A model generated the notes under the pieces. That model ran no database searches, was not told the origin of the DNA, and was given only the letters and a program-made list of their open reading frames with translations. Shown one piece after another: positions 51,043-64,000 of a DNA stretch of 64,000 nucleotides. How positions within the stretch are numbered: position 1 is the first letter of the stretch; each line of letters starts with the position of its first letter. The translations under genes and the position numbers were made by a program. This DNA comes from Gloeobacter morelensis MG652769 (GTDB lineage Bacteria > Cyanobacteriota > Cyanobacteriia > Gloeobacterales > Gloeobacteraceae). Where the stretch lies: the NCBI RefSeq assembly GCF_021018745.1, contig NZ_CP063845.1:4836001-4900000 (forward strand), written 5' to 3'.

Positions 51043-52629
51043 TCAAAACGCCGCGAGGCCAAATGCGTCGAAGGCGATGACGGGACTGTCCGGCCGGCGG
51101 GTGTCGAAGCGGTAACTGGTCACCGTACCGGTTGCGGTCTCGAGGATGCTGAAGGCGGTGATCTCGTTGCTCGCCAGATACGGCTGCGGCTTGCCGTCGG
51201 GGTCGATGAGGGGTGCCAGGTTTGGGATCACAGGTTCCAGACCGTTCGGGTCGCCGGTAGGTTGATAATCGTCCCCGGCGGGCAGCGGGCTGCGCGCTCG
51301 GCCGGGCGGGTAGGCGCCGAAGGTGTTGCCGACGTTGGAAGTTTCCAGATAGTGGGTCGCCCCGCTGGTGAAGCGGTTCCACAGGTGGCAGTGGCCGAAG
51401 AGCACCAGTTGCACGCCATAGGCTTCCAGCAGTGGCTGCAACTCGCGGATGAGCACGTCCTGGGCTTTTGGATAGCGGTAGCGGACCGCTGTCACCCGAC
51501 CGGTGGCGTCGCGCTCGATGTAGGGATGCGGATCGGTGTAGGGGGGAACAATATTTCCGCCCAGCCCGTGCACCGGGTGATGGAGCATGACTACCCGCAA
51601 ACGGGCGTTGCCAAAGGCGGCTGAAGCCAGTTCGCGCTCCAGCCAGGCATATTGCGCACTGCCCGCGTGGAGAGGCTCGAAGATAAATTCGCCGTAGCCC
51701 CACCGCTGCGGATAAGCTAGATCTTCGGGATGTTCGCTATATTTACCCCGCGTGCCCGGTTCGGGAGAACGCCAGATGCGCGTGGCATACAGAGAAATCA
51801 GTCGCACATCGCCAAAACTGACCGCGTAGTAGGGCGGAGCATCGAAGATGGCCCGGTAGCTCCAGGTATTGAACGATTCGGCTTCGAGGTGAGTTTCTGG
51901 ATAACCCAGATCCCGGGCGGCCTGTACGGGTCTGGCGAAGGAGAGATTGAGCGCTTCTGTGCCTGTGGCGATGCCCATCACCTCGTGGTTGCCGATGCAC
52001 GGAAAAATCGGGGCGTGCTGGAGAATTTCGCCACCGTGCCAGATACGTCCTCCAAGCGGGTAGTGGGCACGGCCCTGCAGGCAGGCAAAAAAAGCGTTCC
52101 CGCGGTTGTCGTCGAACCACTCGCTGGCTCTATCCGGCACATTCACCAGATCCCCGGCAAAAAACACCGCATCGACGCGGCCGACGGTTTCGGTCACTTT
52201 TTGGAGATTGGCCGCCACCATCGGCAGGATCTGATGATCTGAGGTGAGCAAAATCTTCAGGGGAGTACCGGGGGCGGGCGCGCTCGCCAGTTCGTAAATA
52301 TCGCTGCTGCTGTGCTGACCTTCGACTTCGCTGATGACCTGGTAGGGTAGCCGCTCTCCTGCAACCAGACCGTCCACCACCGCTTCGTGGCGATGAATGT
52401 TGCGCCGGTGGATCTGTTTGTAAAGTTCCCCCTGGCCGCGTTGAGCCCCGACGTAGGAGCGGGCATCCTCGCCCAGGTAGGGCAGAGGGCGGCTCACGGC
52501 CGGGATATGCCGTTCGAGGTTTTGGCCGGCGCGCACATGGTGGTGATTGCCCTGGCCCTCGCTAAACCAGACGACGCGCACCGAATCGGCCGCAGGCCAC
52601 AGCAACAGCGGATCGCTCAACAGGGGCAT
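51043..52629 (-). CDS. Calcineurin-like metallophosphoesterase
   Basis: A 528-residue protein. The phosphoesterase domain from about 120 has LLTSDHQI (first metal motif in a variant form), FFAGDLVN, IFPCIGNHEVMG, VVMLHHPVHG and LVLFGHCHLWNR, so the di-metal site is complete apart from the unusual first motif. Residues 1-115 have a beta-rich region (LLWPAADSVRVVWFSEGQGN) like the FN3-type N-terminal domain of purple-acid-phosphatase-like enzymes. No clear signal peptide. Substrate unknown. The first about 38 codons and the upstream region are duplicated at 53663-53844. Confidence 0.82.
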   Translation of the reverse strand: MPLLSDPLLLWPAADSVRVVWFSEGQGNHHHVRAGQNLERHIPAVSRPLPYLGEDARSYVGAQRGQGELYKQIHRRNIHRHEAVVDGLVAGERLPYQVISEVEGQHSSSDIYELASAPAPGTPLKILLTSDHQILPMVAANLQKVTETVGRVDAVFFAGDLVNVPDRASEWFDDNRGNAFFACLQGRAHYPLGGRIWHGGEILQHAPIFPCIGNHEVMGIATGTEALNLSFARPVQAARDLGYPETHLEAESFNTWSYRAIFDAPPYYAVSFGDVRLISLYATRIWRSPEPGTRGKYSEHPEDLAYPQRWGYGEFIFEPLHAGSAQYAWLERELASAAFGNARLRVVMLHHPVHGLGGNIVPPYTDPHPYIERDATGRVTAVRYRYPKAQDVLIRELQPLLEAYGVQLVLFGHCHLWNRFTSGATHYLETSNVGNTFGAYPPGRARSPLPAGDDYQPTGDPNGLEPVIPNLAPLIDPDGKPQPYLASNEITAFSILETATGTVTSYRFDTRRPDSPVIAFDAFGLAAF

Positions 52630-52694
52630 ACTCGATACCGGGTAGGGCCGGGGCCTATCATAGCCCGTGGACCTCTGGGAGAACGGACCTGTGG
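52516..52694. repeat. Direct repeat copy A (5' end of the phosphoesterase gene)
   Basis: About 179 bp matching 53663-53844 with a modest number of substitutions, most in the coding part being conservative. It contains the start of the phosphoesterase gene and its upstream region, including GAGAACGGACC. Together with copy B it brackets the MNT/HEPN genes. Confidence 0.8.
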
Positions 52695-53557: not shown

Positions 53558-53662
53558 GTCGTACGGAGTGCAGAACAAATGCTCGATGCGATGCCTTCGG
53601 TACGCCTCGCCCAAACGGGTCACTCAGAAAACTGGTCAGCATCACATCGAAATCAGCTGCTT

Positions 53663-53776
53663 GAGGTTTTGGCCGGCGCGCACATGGTGGTGATTGCCCT
53701 GGCCCTCACTAAACCAGACAACGCGCACCGAGTCGGCCGTGGGCCACAGCAACAGCGGCTCGCTCAACAGGGGCAT
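53663..53776 (-). pseudogene. Truncated copy of the phosphoesterase gene start
   Basis: Encodes MPLLSEPLLLWPTADSVRVV, WFSEGQGNHHHVRAGQNL, nearly identical to the first 38 residues of the phosphoesterase at 52629, then diverges and stops. It is a gene fragment created by the segmental duplication. Translation would give no useful product. Confidence 0.8.
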
Positions 53777-53844
53777 AGGGCAGTACCGGTGGGGACCGGG
53801 GCATATCATAGCCCGTATTACCACTGTGGAGAACGGACCCGTGG
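53663..53844. repeat. Direct repeat copy B (next to the WYL gene)
   Basis: Matches 52516-52694. It ends at the start of the WYL gene (GAGAACGGACCCGTGG), 1147 bp from copy A. Confidence 0.8.
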
Positions 53845-54917
53845 ACCCAGCCCATCCGGCTCCGGTCGAAGAAAAAGCTTTACCCGATCGCGGTCGCCTC
53901 AAGCAGCGCTACTGCCGCCTGCTGAAGATTCAACAATTGCTGCTTGCCTCCGAAAACGGCTTGACCCCGCGGCAATTGCACGAAGCGCTCAGCAAACTGG
54001 GGCATCCCTTTGATATCAAAGAGCGCCGCCTCTACGACGATCTGCAGTTTCTAGCCGAAACCCTCGAAGAAGGAACCTTTTTCAACGACAACGGTCGCTA
54101 CCGCGTGGTTTTATCCGGAGGGCAGGTTGCTCTGACCGCCCAGGAGGCCCAGTTTTGCCTGCGGCTGGTCGCCGGACTGAGCACCCGGGTGCTTACTCGG
54201 GAGACCCGCAGGCAAAGAGAAAACCTGTTCCGGCGCGCCGGCAATCTGTACCCCTTGCTGATGGAAAAGGTCAAATCGCCTCCTGAGCAAATTCTTTTTC
54301 CGGTGACTTACCAACTGGAAGATGAGGCGGACCAGGGGGTAATGTTTGCCACACTGACCAGTGCCATCGAGGCCAAAAAACAGGTCAACCTCCAGTTCAA
54401 AGACTCGTCCCTAGGCCAGGTGTTGGGTTGCTGTCCGCTGCGGCTGCTGTTTTACATCCGGGCCTGGTACCTGATTGGCTACTGCAATCCGCCCAGCGGT
54501 TTGAAGAAAAAGATGCGCAGGCAGCTTTGCGCCTTGAGACTGGACAATATCGAACAAGCCGAAGTGTTGATTGCAGGCTTCAAGCTGTCTGAGCAGATGA
54601 ACGTGGATGCCGCCCTGGATCGAGCCTGGGGACTGAATTTTTATGATCCTATATGTGAGGCGGTTTTGCGGTTCAGCCCGGCGCTAGCAGAGCGGATCGA
54701 GCGCAACCGCCGCCATCCAACCGCCACACTTGAACGCCAGAGCGACGGTTCTTTAATATTTAAAGTCTTTTACTACGAAGGCTCCCTAGATTTTCGTCAG
54801 TGGGTTCGACAGTATGGACCGGAAGTCGAAGTTAGAGAACCTGCTCAGTTGCGAGAGCAGATGATCCAGGACTGGCAAACTGCCCTTGGTTTATATCATC
54901 CTTGCGAAGCTGTGTAG
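53826..54917 (+). CDS. WYL-domain transcriptional regulator
   Basis: A 363-residue protein (GTG at 53826; GTG at 53841 is also possible). N-terminal winged helix (YCRLLKIQQLLLASENGLTP, FDIKERRLYDDLQFLAETLE), then a WYL domain (LRLLFYIRAWYLIGYCNPPS, LRLDNIEQAEV) and a WCX C-terminus (FKVFYYEGSLDFRQWVRQYG). WYL proteins bind nucleotide or nucleic-acid ligands and often control defence and CRISPR genes in cyanobacteria. It is convergent with the Cmr operon and once overlapped the 3' end of the CARF-HEPN gene by 86 bp, so it is a candidate regulator of that operon. Confidence 0.85.
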   Translation: MENGPVDPAHPAPVEEKALPDRGRLKQRYCRLLKIQQLLLASENGLTPRQLHEALSKLGHPFDIKERRLYDDLQFLAETLEEGTFFNDNGRYRVVLSGGQVALTAQEAQFCLRLVAGLSTRVLTRETRRQRENLFRRAGNLYPLLMEKVKSPPEQILFPVTYQLEDEADQGVMFATLTSAIEAKKQVNLQFKDSSLGQVLGCCPLRLLFYIRAWYLIGYCNPPSGLKKKMRRQLCALRLDNIEQAEVLIAGFKLSEQMNVDAALDRAWGLNFYDPICEAVLRFSPALAERIERNRRHPTATLERQSDGSLIFKVFYYEGSLDFRQWVRQYGPEVEVREPAQLREQMIQDWQTALGLYHPCEAV

Positions 54918-55101
54918 TTACCCACTGACGAAGAACCGAAAATAAATAATACTCCGACAAATCAAAATCGATATGCAATCCGTTGTTGACTATTGCTCTT
55001 GTCGTTGTGTTGAGCCTATCAATACTTCCAATAATCTTTTGAGATTCAGCGCTCGTAATTGACACACCTTGTCCTATATGGGCGAGCTGGTTGCGCTTTT
55101 C
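54832..55101 (-). pseudogene. 3' fragment of the CARF-HEPN ribonuclease gene
   Basis: Codons from the 8-bp duplication onward encode EKRNQLAHIGQGVSITSAES and so on to ATEQVL. The arginine and histidine of RNQLAH form the HEPN RxxxxH motif. The upstream part of the gene is on the other side of the IS. Joined, 562 residues in one frame. Separated, this fragment has no start and is not expected to be made. Confidence 0.85.
55094..55101. repeat. 8-bp target site duplication, left copy
   Basis: CGCTTTTC, identical to 56333-56340; flanks the IS exactly. Confidence 0.9.
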
Positions 55102-56332
55102 GGCTCTCCTGAGTTCAAGGTGAGCAGCATCCCTTCTTGGCAAAGCCAGCGAGCAGCCGCAAGCGCAGGTTCTCAAAGTTTGTAAAGCCGTAGCCCTGGC
55201 GTTTGATTAACTTGATGCGGTTGTTGATGCCCTCCATCACTCCACTACTCGACCGACGGATAAAATAGTTGCAGACCCCCTCGAAATGTTCTGTAATGGT
55301 CTGCACCACCTTCCCATATACCTTGCGGGCTTTCAAAAGCCAGTCTTCCAACTTCTGCTGACCTTCATCTACACTCTGACTCCTCTCATAAATCCACCGA
55401 AATTCCTCTTTGTATTCATACGCTTTGCGTAAACGTTTGTCGATCTGCAGATAGGTTTCTAGCTGAACTTTCTGCCCGGCATTCAAGTCCACTCCATTCT
55501 TTAGGAGCAAAAATTGCTCCTTGCGCTTGCCCAAGCCACATTGGCGAGCAATCTTCTTGACCTCTTCGTTCACCATCCGCATCACGTGAAACCGGTCGTA
55601 GACAATCACAGCATTGGGAAAGGCTTCCTGGACAACCTTTCGAAAACCTCCCCACATGTCGATGCTCACTTCTTCAATAGCTTCGCGCACCTCAAGCGCT
55701 TGCAGGCAAAGGCTTTCAATGATCTCTTTTTGTTTGTGACTATCGATGACCTCCAGCAATTCGCCAGTCTCGATATCGCAAAGTACCGTTTTAAAATCGT
55801 GGCCGCGCCGCCCACTAAACTCATCGATGCTGATGCGCTTGACGGGGCCCCAGTCTTTTTTTTAACTGCCTGGCCACATGCTCGAACATGCCTCGTACTT
55901 CGTCTGGACTGATGCCTTCTTCGCGCGCAATCTGTTCGAGACTTGAGGCGGGTACCCGCTCGTAGATATCCTGCTCGAAACGGCGGGTGTGTCGCCGTCG
56001 CCAATCGACGAAATCCAGTTGTTCGGTACAGTAGCGTTCGCAGGTTTGGCAGTAAAATTGTCTTCGAGGAATGTGCAAAAATACGGGCATTTTACGTATT
56101 TTCAAGTCTCGGATGTGCAGGGGACGTGCTTGATGTTCGCGGTCGGTAAACTGGCCGCAACCGCCGCAGAGTATACCTGGAGCAAGCGGCTTGAGATAGA
56201 AGATAATGCCCCGTTCATCGATGGACTGCCGTTCGACATAAACGTTGGGTAGCCCGAGCAGTTGCGTCAGTTCGATACTCATTGGCAGAATGTATGGTGC
56301 TATACAGCATACACCATGGACTCAGGAGAGCC
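55102..56332 (-). mobile_element. ISL3-family insertion sequence, 1231 bp
   Basis: Terminal inverted repeats GGCTCTCCTGAGTTCA (55102-55117) and, at the other end, GGCTCTCCTGAGTCCA (reverse complement of 56317-56332), 15 of 16 identical, and an 8-bp duplication, as usual for ISL3. One transposase gene on the minus strand, in two frames. It splits the CARF-HEPN gene and is in the same direction as that gene. Confidence 0.93.
55115..56282 (-). CDS. ISL3 transposase with one-base frame break at A8
   Basis: N-terminal part (from 56282) has the ISL3 zinc finger CGGCGQ...CQTCERYC and helix-turn-helix SLEQIAREEGISPDEVRGMF, ending at 55821 in the first frame. The rest (from the D of KRISIDEFSGRRGHDFKTVL) is in the next frame and ends at 55115: DMWGGFRKVVQEAF, VIVYDRFHVMRMVN and YFIRRSSSGVMEGINNRIKL (E) form the DDE site. 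The frames meet in a run of eight A residues (55856-55863). One A less gives an intact 388-residue protein. Slippage on A8 could restore it; otherwise it is a pseudogene. Confidence 0.85.
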
Positions 56333-56340
56333 CGCTTTTC
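56333..56340. repeat. 8-bp target site duplication, right copy
   Basis: CGCTTTTC, identical to 55094-55101. Confidence 0.9.
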
Positions 56341-57759
56341 TATCCAGTCGTCAAGAAGATATTTCAAGTCTATTTTGATTTTGTTCCAAGCGGCTAAATC
56401 GTTGATGACAATTTTTTCATGCTTCTCATCAAATTGAAAAAGGGAGTCCACATAACGGATGAGAGTATGAGTATATCTCAGGCGATAACCATCCCTGACT
56501 TTTTCTCTCTTAGGGTTTTTATTATTGTCTTTTTCGTTGAGATTATTTTCAAAGACTGTTATGAAATCATCAGGCAATCGATTAATTTTCAAACAATACC
56601 AGCCCTCATTCTGCACGATGACGGTTTGTCCGAATAGTTTTTGAGACCATTCCAAAGCAAGTTTTTTCAGGAGAAGCTCACAAAATGTAGACATTCGCCA
56701 CAGAAGGTCTGGAATCTCCTGCAATTCAAGTTTTATCTTGCACTGTGCATAAAGATTTTGTAAGGTGTCATGTTTATCGATACTTGTTCGATCAAAACCA
56801 ATGCATGCCTCCAAAGCCGGTTGTCCTTGAATGGCTACGAGAGCAGCTTCGGCATCAAGCTTAAGCAAGTTCTGTGCACATTCTAAAGCTGTAGCGATGG
56901 TACTTACTTCCTGTTGTGGCACCCCGGATGTGTAACGAGAAGCCCAGTCCAAGTCATTATTCCATTGCTTCCATATTTCTGCTGCACCATCAAAGTCCCA
57001 ACGAGAAAGTAGTTGTGTAATAGCCTGATGTTTTTGATTGCGGACGAACCGCCAGTACGAGGTAACTTCACATACCGACGGCAATCCAGCCATAACCTTC
57101 TCAGCGGAAAACTCCGGTTCAAAAAATAACAGCTTTCTTATGCCTGATGCGAGTGCTTGAATGCGCAATGCAGTTTGCATTTGGGGGGTTCCACCTTTGA
57201 TGCTAACCAAGATCACCTCATTGTCCGGAAGCTGTTCAAATTGGGCTCTGTAGTAATCGAACAAAGCATCTAACTTCCTGGGATCGATATCCTTAAGCGG
57301 ACGTTTCTCGAAAGAAAGTGAGGGATATTTATGCTCAAACCATCGCTTAGAAACTTCAAACAAATAAACCGTATCATTGTGATGATAATCAGGCCTTAAT
57401 TCGGTAGCCTGGTCGGTCACAAACAAGTACACTTTGTCAATTTTCAATTCTTGGAATAATTCAGCTTTTGCCAAAAGACCATCAACCCTGCTGATGCGAA
57501 TGAGTTGTTGCCAGCGTTGGGGATCTTTCATATAAGCCTCAGCGAGGCAGTTTGTGAGTGGCCTGAAGTACTCTTTTTGATTTGTAAGCTGTAGTTGAAT
57601 TTCCTGTCTCAAAAAGTCTTTGACTAATTTGCTGCGTTCATTCCACTCCTGTAAGTTTTCAGATACATTCGGCTCATCGCGGACGTCGACGGGAAGAAAA
57701 CATTCTCCAACTTTTACGGACAGATCCGAGACTCCCAGGTTGGCAATCAAAATAGCCAT
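56333..57759 (-). pseudogene. CARF-HEPN (Csx1/Csm6-like) gene, 5' part, interrupted by ISL3
   Basis: Encodes residues 1-476 of an originally 562-residue protein. The N-terminal CARF domain (1-240) begins MAILIANLGVSDLSVKVGEC, with the ring-ligand motif VSIKGGTPQMQT near 186-197, which binds cyclic oligoadenylate made by Cas10. The helical part (about 240-562) is a HEPN ribonuclease. The IS lies between codons of E474-K475-R476 and N477, so after R476 the frame now runs into IS sequence (ALLSPWCMLYSTIH...) and histidine 481 is lost. Last gene of the Cmr operon, 6 bp after uma2. The CARF half could still be made. Confidence 0.88.
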
Positions 57760-57765
57760 ATCACA

Positions 57766-58404
57766 TTACTCCAAGTAGTATCGCTGGATCCAGGAACGAA
57801 GCGCACGATAAAGCTCTGTGTCATTCGACTCACTGTATGTCTGAAGGAAGCGAATGACATCAGCAGCGGCCAGGAATGCGAATGTCAGGCTGTAGGTGAC
57901 GCTGCGATATTGCCGAATTGTTGGATCGAGTTGGTAAAAAATCAGTTCTCTATCTTTGTATCTCCATACCTCTGTCACGCCCATCGCAGCGTAAATAGAC
58001 ATGCGATCTAATGAACTGCTCGCTACATCGATCTCGATAACTAGGTCCGGAGGCGGATCGACAGCGAGATCGATCTGGGCTTTGCCCTGTACAGCGGCGA
58101 CGTTTTGGATGTAGAAGCACTCATCCGGCTCAAGGCCACGATCGAGATCTTGGCGCCTGAAGGTTGCCGATCCGCCCGCAATCATGGGCAAGTTGAGTTC
58201 CTCCGTCAAGATCTCAACAAGGCGACCGAGGCGTTTTTTGTAGCGCTCGTGATTGTAGGAAGGGCTCATCAGTTCAAGAAGCCCCCGATCGTAGGTTAAG
58301 TGAACGGGCTGATTCCCAATAATGGCCAATAATCTGTCATAACTTTCCCATGAGATGCTCGTCAGTAAAAACGTTCGATCCAGAGATGGTGCTAGATTTG
58401 TCAT
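57766..58404 (-). CDS. Uma2-family putative nuclease
   Basis: A 212-residue protein of the cyanobacterial Uma2 family (PD-(D/E)xK fold): YDRGLLELMSPSYNHERYKK, PDECFYIQNVA, PPDLVIEIDVASSSLDRMSI (acidic core; the usual lysine of ExK is not present in this stretch) and MGVTEVWRYKD. These genes are multicopy in cyanobacteria and their role is unclear. It sits inside the Cmr operon, 48 bp after cmr6-cmr1 and 6 bp before the CARF-HEPN gene, so it is cotranscribed with them. Start MTNLAP chosen; 58434 is also possible. Confidence 0.78.
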   Translation of the reverse strand: MTNLAPSLDRTFLLTSISWESYDRLLAIIGNQPVHLTYDRGLLELMSPSYNHERYKKRLGRLVEILTEELNLPMIAGGSATFRRQDLDRGLEPDECFYIQNVAAVQGKAQIDLAVDPPPDLVIEIDVASSSLDRMSIYAAMGVTEVWRYKDRELIFYQLDPTIRQYRSVTYSLTFAFLAAADVIRFLQTYSESNDTELYRALRSWIQRYYLE

Positions 58405-58452
58405 TGCTGTAGCTAACCTGATGGGGAATCTCAAATACAGAAAAACCTACCG

Positions 58453-60432
58453 CTACGGCCAAACGGTATAGGCACCCGACTTTTGTAGCAATTCTTTCAC
58501 GAAGAGGGCTCGATCCCCATGCTTCGCCCCGAAAACAGTTACGATCTGATACGGCTCTTGCTCCGCCGGAAAATGGGATTTGATGATTACAAATGAAGGT
58601 ACTTCCAAAGCTCCGCCTACAAATTTGTTACCGAATACAATATATCGGTCACCTTCTTTAATTCGTTTTTCTCCTTTAAATTGGTCATTACTGTAGAGCA
58701 AATCCAGTGCCTCTCCTATTACCTTTAGTTTATGACCTGCCTTCGACCAATTCTCTACTTTCTGCGGATGCATGAGTGACGCCGAAGGCACACAGCAAAT
58801 CGCCGTGTCTTTGTTAAGGGTGTCCTGGTAGCGAACGACCTTGTCTTTTCCGTTAATTTTGGTTAGCTTGCCAGGAGCGCAAACAATGGGATTACCTTCA
58901 GGCTGGTAAAGTTTGAGCAAACTCTCGTACACTAATCGAAACAAGTTCTTCCACGCCTGGAGATTCAAAGGAATTGACACTTCATCAACTTGCCAATGGC
59001 AGCCGCGCATCCTTCCAGAGTTCCAATGCAATGGCCTTCGCGAGCCTCGGCCGAGACCACCGAGTGCAACTGCAATCGTAAGCAGACTTTGTGCAAGTTC
59101 TAGATACTTTATATCTTGTGCTTCCAGAAGTATCTTGCCTGTATAGTTGTGTGGGTCGGTAGACACTACCTGCCAATCCATCCCTAATCGCACCTTACCT
59201 TCTTGGCTTAACGCTCCAAAAATCTCGTTTTCCATCTGCAGAACTTGTTGGGGTGGGTAGCTTCCCAGTGCAGCAGCTCTGAACCAATACCGCAGGACAC
59301 CTCTAATAGCTGTTGGACGCAATTCGATATTTCCTTGCCAGTTATTTTCTTTGCTAGGAGGAACGGCTCCGTATATGCCCTGGGTCCACAGTTCGAAACT
59401 ATAGGTTTTGCTGTTGCTCCAGGCGGGTTTTAATTCGGTTCTTCCATAACCGGCGCTGACGCGCGAACCCAACCCTTCGCAGAGAGCTTTCTGCAACCAG
59501 TGCTTAACCTCAGCTACGTCGGTCTGTTCCCCGCGACGAGTGGGAGCAAGGCCAATTACCAACTCAGGCTGCTCTAAGGTGAGTAAGGCATGCGGCGATG
59601 GGCTATATTTGACACGCTCTCCCTCCCATGACCACTGTGGATTGGCCATATCGACGCTCAGGCACGGCCCGGATGGAAAAGCGTCAAAGATCTCAACGCG
59701 GGCCACACCATCGGTGAGAGAGCCGAGTAGTCTATCTGGATCCTGGTTGTGGCGCCTAGCCCAGGCGCGAGCTGCCCCCTTTAAACTACTCGCCGGGATA
59801 TACGGAACTCCGTAGACAGGGTGCAAGACCGGCAACAGCAGATCCCGAAAACCGCGCAAACCACCTACGCGTAGCCTCCAGGGGAAACGGACTGTAAGAA
59901 TGTTTTCCTCCGAACCAGCTAGTTTATGAGTCCTCTGAATGAGTTGCTTGTAGAGTGGACTGCATTTTTTTTCGGCCGCTGCAGCGGCATCGAGTACGGG
60001 TTTCACCAAATCATCACCATCTTTACCCGGGCCGTATGGTTGGAAAAGCAGTGACTGCAAAGGATTTTCCAGCCTCGGGCCTCTAACAACGATATGCTTC
60101 GGATTCTTCATGGTTTGGGCAGCTTGAATAGGTACCTGAGCAGCAGGTAGTGCGATAGCACTTTCTACTTCACATTCGACCCGCTTGCTTTTGAACTCCG
60201 GAGGCAACCTCGTTATGATACTTTGCACCTGCTGCTGGGCTGCATCCTTTAACTCGTTAGACGGAAACAACAGTACTAAGGCTTTTTCATCAACTGAATA
60301 TAGCTTGCTATGCTGCAGAGCGCCATAAATCTTTGGCGGTGGTTTTTGCTTTGACATGCTATTTAAAAACTCCTTCCATTTTTGCTGAGGAGATTTTTCC
60401 TGATCATCATGTCTGCGTCGATCAAAGTTCAT
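58453..60432 (-). CDS. cmr6-cmr1: Cmr6-Cmr1 fusion of the type III-B effector
   Basis: A 659-residue protein. Residues about 1-110 are an extra domain (QQKWKEFLNSMSKQ, SVDEKALVLLFPSNELKDAA). About 165-345 is Cmr6: VGGLRGFRDLLLPVLHPVYG, VPYIPASSLKGAARAW and the end GLGSRVSAGYGRTEL (glycine-rich loop). About 355-659 is Cmr1: FELWTQGIYGAVPPSKENN, IELRPTAIRGVLRYWFRAAA, VALGGLGRGSRRPL. In standard III-B loci Cmr6 and Cmr1 are separate, placed at the 3' end of the backbone and close to the target-entry end. The fusion has no stop or frameshift. Start 60432 overlaps the cmr5 stop (ATGA). Confidence 0.88.
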   Translation of the reverse strand: MNFDRRRHDDQEKSPQQKWKEFLNSMSKQKPPPKIYGALQHSKLYSVDEKALVLLFPSNELKDAAQQQVQSIITRLPPEFKSKRVECEVESAIALPAAQVPIQAAQTMKNPKHIVVRGPRLENPLQSLLFQPYGPGKDGDDLVKPVLDAAAAAEKKCSPLYKQLIQRTHKLAGSEENILTVRFPWRLRVGGLRGFRDLLLPVLHPVYGVPYIPASSLKGAARAWARRHNQDPDRLLGSLTDGVARVEIFDAFPSGPCLSVDMANPQWSWEGERVKYSPSPHALLTLEQPELVIGLAPTRRGEQTDVAEVKHWLQKALCEGLGSRVSAGYGRTELKPAWSNSKTYSFELWTQGIYGAVPPSKENNWQGNIELRPTAIRGVLRYWFRAAALGSYPPQQVLQMENEIFGALSQEGKVRLGMDWQVVSTDPHNYTGKILLEAQDIKYLELAQSLLTIAVALGGLGRGSRRPLHWNSGRMRGCHWQVDEVSIPLNLQAWKNLFRLVYESLLKLYQPEGNPIVCAPGKLTKINGKDKVVRYQDTLNKDTAICCVPSASLMHPQKVENWSKAGHKLKVIGEALDLLYSNDQFKGEKRIKEGDRYIVFGNKFVGGALEVPSFVIIKSHFPAEQEPYQIVTVFGAKHGDRALFVKELLQKSGAYTVWP

Positions 60433-60816
60433 TGCTCTGCTGCAACTCCTAAAACATGTGTTGCCCAAAACGACCACTCGCGAGACAGTTCGATCGCCAG
60501 ACGATTGAGGGCTGTGTACTCTCTAAGGGGCATTTCGAGCAGGGTTTTAGGTTCATCCGCAGTAAACTTGATATTGGAATAACTTTGTAGTTTTCCGAGG
60601 AACTTGCGGTAGATCTTGCCTTTGTATTTAGTATCTTCTGATGCTCGGGGCTGCAAATATTTCTGGGCATCGCCTGCCAGGCGATGTAGTCCCCACGTTG
60701 CGATATAAGACGGCAGTTCCTGAACTAGGCTGCTCGCTCTTATGTAATACGTGGTTTCCAGCTCCTGAGCTATTTCCGTTAATGCTCTGTACGCTTCTTG
60801 ACTCGGTGCGCGCATG

Positions 60817-60827
<11 letters not shown>
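60429..60827 (-). CDS. cmr5: Cmr5, small subunit of the type III-B effector
   Basis: A 132-residue all-helical protein: SYIATWGLHRLAGDAQKYLQ, REYTALNRLAIELSREWSFW. Cmr5 packs along the RNA-guided backbone beside Cmr4. It overlaps cmr4 (11 bp) and the fusion gene (4 bp). Length is normal. The first four residues are uncertain, since M5 is another start. Confidence 0.88.

Positions 60828-64000
<3,173 letters not shown>

Follow-up and report, generated by a model that had tools for sequence, protein, structure and literature searches.

An ISL3-family insertion within the catalytic motif of a type III-B-linked CARF-HEPN gene in Gloeobacter morelensis MG652769, with an identical copy in cas2

The window, by which we mean the whole 64,000-nucleotide stretch of Gloeobacter morelensis MG652769 that was analysed (contig NZ_CP063845.1; G000:C1:4836001-4900000), ends within a CRISPR-Cas locus that we refer to as locus 1 (Table 1). 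Cas10/Cmr2 with GGDD, Cmr3 to Cmr6 and Cmr1 are all encoded here, with Cmr6 and Cmr1 fused, which is the gene content of a type III-B locus. The Cmr and Cas10 genes remain open, and the GGDD motif that the first-pass annotation had ascribed to Cas10 is confirmed in the form YSGGDD. The CRISPR array, which follows cas2, has about 27 repeats, the last of them degenerate (L045:7077-9020). On its other side the locus includes a CARF-HEPN gene, whose 3' end overlaps that of the neighbouring, convergent WYL gene. A direct repeat of 145 nt (52509-52653 and 53656-53800; 86% identical, spacing 1147 bp) lies upstream of this WYL gene. A long fused Cmr6-Cmr1-like RAMP protein is seen in both type III loci of this genome (for the second, L092:5497-7161) and in a related species (L044:7390-9312). 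In our literature searches, we did not find a description of this locus.

Table 1. Features of locus 1 in the window (positions are those of the window)
Feature	Position	Strand	Remarks
WYL-domain CRISPR-associated regulator (TIGR03985-like), convergent neighbour	53694..54917	+	
3' part of the CARF-HEPN gene, TSD copy and codons R476 to 562	54832..55101	-	collinear with the L044 ortholog
Target-site duplication CGCTTTTC, left copy	55094..55101	.	
ISL3-family insertion sequence	55102..56332	-	PF01610 E=5.5e-53; PF13542; PF14690
Transposase ORF B (ISL3 DDE domain), from first TTG	55115..55759	-	frame open from the A8 run
Transposase ORF A (Zn ribbon, HTH)	55821..56282	-	ends just past the A8 run
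Target-site duplication CGCTTTTC, right copy	56333..56340	.	
5' part of the CARF-HEPN gene, codons 1-476 (CARF, middle region, first part of HEPN)	56333..57759	-	
Uma2-family putative endonuclease gene	57766..58434	-	also in L044
Fused Cmr6-Cmr1 RAMP protein	58453..60477	-	
cmr5	60429..60827	-	
cmr4	60817..61986	-	
cmr3	61698..62870	-	
cas10/cmr2, 3' part with YSGGDD	62828..63976	-	whole gene 1078 aa, L045:829-4065

The CARF-HEPN gene is interrupted by an insertion sequence (IS) with a length of 1231 bp. An IS of this size with an exact 8-bp target-site duplication (TSD) had been proposed in the first-pass annotation, and we found the duplication CGCTTTTC, which reads GAAAAGCG on the strand of the CARF-HEPN gene, without any mismatch at both flanks. 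The earlier assignment to the ISL3 family is borne out by the transposase domains PF01610, PF13542 and PF14690, and the element combines the DDE transposase, the terminal inverted repeats and the 8-bp TSD of that family. The terminal inverted repeats (55102-55122 and 56312-56332) had been described as near-identical, but they are imperfect and only 90% complementary over 21 nt, that is, similar and not identical; the exactness of the TSD, to which the same statement referred, stands.

There are eight full-length, 100% identical copies of the IS in the genome, and exact 8-bp TSDs were found at five of them. The identity of the copies, the perfect TSD and the complete lack of stop codons in either piece of the interrupted gene agree with the event being recent, as had been suggested, and most likely we see a recent, ordinary inactivation of the CARF-HEPN gene by IS insertion. 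The dN/dS of the gene pieces against the ortholog in L044 is saturated, since the divergence is too deep, and therefore the event cannot be dated that way. Potentially, eight identical copies of 1231 bp could confuse an assembly, and the split frame could be an artefact of the repeated IS. We regard this as extremely improbable, because a misjoin would hardly be expected to create an exact TSD of 8 bp; furthermore, the TSDs at the CARF-HEPN site and at a second site in cas2 (see below) are perfect and differ from each other, and the assembly has 3 contigs.

The transposase is encoded in two ORFs, A and B, which lie in different frames and meet at a run of eight A (A8) at about 55856-55863 of the minus strand. 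No other homopolymer in the IS reaches six bases, and the loss of one A or the gain of two would join the frames as ...KKDW...ISIDEF. The same A8 run with the same frame offset occurs in another IS group of the same genome (76% identical, with at least seven identical copies; L010) and in a 74% identical copy from another species of the genus (L076). Over the full alignment, the pairwise identity of the three ISL3 lineages is 70-74%. Since run and offset are conserved in all three lineages, we rejected the idea that the split transposase marks a dead IS; as far as the sequences can tell, the split is probably due to programmed slippage of the RNA polymerase or of the ribosome in a subgroup of ISL3, and not to decay or a sequencing error. 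A recoding review names IS1, IS3, IS5 and IS630 as insertion sequences that use frameshifts, and we found no mention of ISL3 in it (PMC5009743). The conserved frame break suggests that programmed slippage extends to a further IS family.

When the IS and one copy of the TSD are removed, the flanks join into a single frame of 562 codons (57759 to 54832) that contains R476-N-Q-L-A-H481, which reproduces the frame given in the first-pass annotation. There, the insertion was said to hit the catalytic motif between R and N. The first part of this statement holds, but the insertion point has to be refined: it lies inside the R476 codon, after its second base (CG/C), within RNQLAH. Because the first base of the IS is a G, the codon is rebuilt as CGG and the upstream piece keeps an arginine at position 476. 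The truncated product reads ...EKR-ALLSPWCMLY..., with 38 IS-derived residues before a stop at 56215, and has 514 aa in total. In this product the R is kept and N-x-x-x-H is lost (EKRALLSPW, with H missing at +5), so that the HEPN RxxxxH motif is absent. It still matches the PADLOC model CARF1--CARF_HEPN PDLC01808 (E=2.6e-104) and retains the CARF motifs NLGVSD and IKGGT. The downstream piece, owing to the target-site duplication, spells EKRNQLAH, yet it does so without the preceding 475 or so residues and hence without CARF and the greater part of HEPN.

The identification of the gene as CARF-HEPN is supported by the joined protein, which matches PADLOC CARF1--CARF_HEPN (E=1.9e-112, residues 1-490) and Csx1/Csm6 (E=1.5e-27, residues 1-503), in both cases across the RxxxxH motif; its Pfam matches fall below the cut-off. 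All of the 17 intact cyanobacterial orthologs match CARF_HEPN, too, and each of the 17 has the motif R-N-x-[LIM]-[VI]-H, in which R, N and H are invariant. Equally invariant in the family are the CARF ligand motifs GxSD and KGGT (G9, S11, D12 and K188-T191 in the numbering of L044). An HHalign comparison of this family with the CARF-HEPN family of a second type III locus of the genome (locus 2) gave a probability of 97.7% (E=1.4e-12), and the RN...H motifs of the two were aligned. A profile search of PDB sequences gave no related solved structure, and no relatives of the family were found in viral contigs. The AlphaFold model of an intact ortholog has a pLDDT of 39, and its alignment contained only two sequences, the ortholog and the protein of the window.

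The nearest intact ortholog has 560 aa, the motif RNELVH and 56% identity, and comes from a metagenome-assembled genome of Aphanocapsa lilacina HA4352-LM1 (JAHHGR010000087.1; L044) that is grouped in the genus of our source genome. The gene order is identical there: cas2, cas1, cas10, cmr3, cmr4, cmr5, cmr6-cmr1, Uma2 and CARF-HEPN. We used this locus as an uninterrupted reference, which is not to be equated with an empty allele from within the species. Some further cyanobacterial orthologs (L108, L109, L111 and L116, from G290, G111 and G102) appear with an incomplete frame or reach the end of their contig, and these could be interrupted alleles as well, or breaks in the assemblies.

In SyCsx1 of Synechocystis, the exchange H388A in the HEPN motif abolishes the RNase activity (PMC9676260). 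Since the motif is invariant in the present family, is aligned with that of the locus-2 family and contains the histidine that is essential in SyCsx1, we infer with good reason that the 514-aa product would have no HEPN RNase activity. Potentially, this product could be made and could act on the signalling, be it as a sink, as a stand-alone ring nuclease or through inactive dimers. Its GxSD and KGGT ligand motifs are intact, and several Csm6 proteins have a CARF domain that works as a ring nuclease (PMC10897365), as does SyCsm6 (PMC9676260). On the other hand, it exposes a partial HEPN domain and the 38 residues derived from the IS, and may be degraded, and an active CARF remnant seems very unlikely to us. 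The sink role that had been suggested for the CARF half is possible, and a ring-nuclease or a dominant-negative role would be just as conceivable.

A second copy of the IS, 100% identical to the first and in the opposite orientation, lies outside the window at C1:4903458-4904688 (L045:5459-6689), 12.4 kb from the first, and interrupts cas2 of locus 1. The TSD at this site is ATACGGAA, and the flanks spell MLYVVVYDIPDNRRRTKVAKILEGYG / NRVQLSVFECDISDKL... The split cas2 matches PF09827 over the cut-off, with positions 1-26 on one side of the IS and 25-72 on the other; the intact cas2 in L044 has 91 aa. One of the remaining six copies sits in a different transposase, and the other five mostly touch no recognisable host gene. 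If copies land at random, two of the eight would fall into the 14-kb locus with a probability of about 2e-4, where it has to be considered that the locus was not picked independently of the finding; the probability that some pair of IS copies comes this close anywhere in the genome is 0.13. Since random landing is unlikely to put two of eight copies into this particular locus, selection, be it relaxed or positive, or hopping over short distances may have contributed.

One could imagine that the loss of effector and cas2 was selected for, the locus being costly through autoimmunity or collateral RNase damage, and that both insertions were adaptive. The two identical copies in two genes of one locus would fit this, as would the position of the other six, mostly away from recognisable host genes, and the fresh state of both gene pieces. 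Against it, the Cmr and Cas10 genes are still open, and the locus-1 spacers have no convincing match in the genome outside the arrays; the best one (85% over 34 nt) is within the array of another locus. Selection by autoimmunity is therefore unsupported, self-targeting was rejected as a driver, and we consider adaptive loss unlikely. A search of the spacers against a phage collection gave zero matches, and against plasmids there was one weak match. Several spacers in all three arrays of the genome (L045:7077-9020; L092; L093) resemble coding sequences of pentapeptide repeats; among those of locus 1, about five of six appear to be antisense to the coding strand, which fits RNA targeting.

The first-pass annotation raised the possibility that cyclic oligoadenylate is produced while this effector is lacking, and proposed to search the genome for other CARF effectors. 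This search did find one. Locus 2 (L092; C1:3.673-3.689 Mb) is of type III-B and has a Cas10 with YAGGDD, cmr3-cmr5, a fused cmr6/1-type gene, cas1, cas2 and at least 46 repeats. Its CARF-HEPN is intact (423 aa; PDLC01806, E=2.4e-124), with the motif RNSSIVAH in an R-x6-H form and a match to the Pfam Csm6 HEPN domain PF09670 just below the cut-off (E=2e-5). In a third locus (L093), at 1.41 Mb, cas4 is fused to cas1; cas2 and about 65 repeats are also present there. As it stood, the suggestion is thus not supported, and judging from the gene content this genome probably still has an effector for cyclic oligoadenylate signalling. Because locus 2 carries an intact CARF-HEPN RNase, the signal may still reach one, and the locus-2 protein may respond to the signal of the locus-1 Cas10, provided that ring size and specificity are compatible. 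As the genome has two type III loci, it would lend itself to a direct study of cross-talk between them through cyclic oligoadenylate. In a similar way, the locus-1 array might rely on Cas2 supplied by other loci.

Our preferred reading, which is very probably correct, is that a recently mobile ISL3-family element would have transposed into the CARF-HEPN gene that belongs to a type III-B locus, destroying the active site of the HEPN RNase, and that a second identical copy would have broken cas2. Most simply, both insertions would be neutral or weakly selected IS events and not an adaptation. Locus 1 would still transcribe its array and assemble Cmr/Cas10, and it may produce cyclic oligoadenylate, which the intact locus-2 CARF-HEPN may answer; new spacers for its array would need the Cas2 of other loci. 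It appears quite unlikely that repeated IS insertion has "locked" the locus, in the sense that it would take up no new spacers and have no collateral RNase of its own, would keep nothing but the guided targeting of RNA by Cmr and the production of cyclic oligoadenylate, and would have its signal handled by the CARF half or, across loci, by the locus-2 CARF-HEPN. On our preferred reading, the CARF-HEPN insertion would amount to a natural knock-out in which a type III effector is cleanly hit in its catalytic motif, next to a GGDD Cas10 that is still open, and one IS would disable both the memory-making (cas2) and the signalling output of a single CRISPR locus. The intact second type III locus probably softens the effect of these insertions.

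With the IS204/IS1001/IS1096/IS1165 (ISL3) family, the element shares the PF01610 DDE, PF13542 HTH and PF14690 zinc-ribbon domains, the 8-bp TSD and inverted ends that begin with GGCTCT. ISL3 elements usually have a single transposase ORF, whereas here the transposase spans two frames at the conserved A8 run. The architecture of the joined protein is that of PADLOC CARF1--CARF_HEPN PDLC01808, and its family has the CARF motifs, the HEPN RxxxxH motif and the linkage to a GGDD Cas10 in common with Csm6/Csx1, including SyCsx1 of Synechocystis. Unlike in those systems, the gene is cut within the R codon of RxxxxH and encodes 514 aa without the motif. Less expected than the rest are the insertion in cas2 and the break of the frame at the A8 run. 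In CRISPR-Cas loci that are degraded by insertion sequences, the cas genes carry insertions and the array is retained, and the same holds for locus 1; the difference is that here two identical copies sit in the adaptation gene cas2 and in the signalling effector, while the Cmr genes are open.
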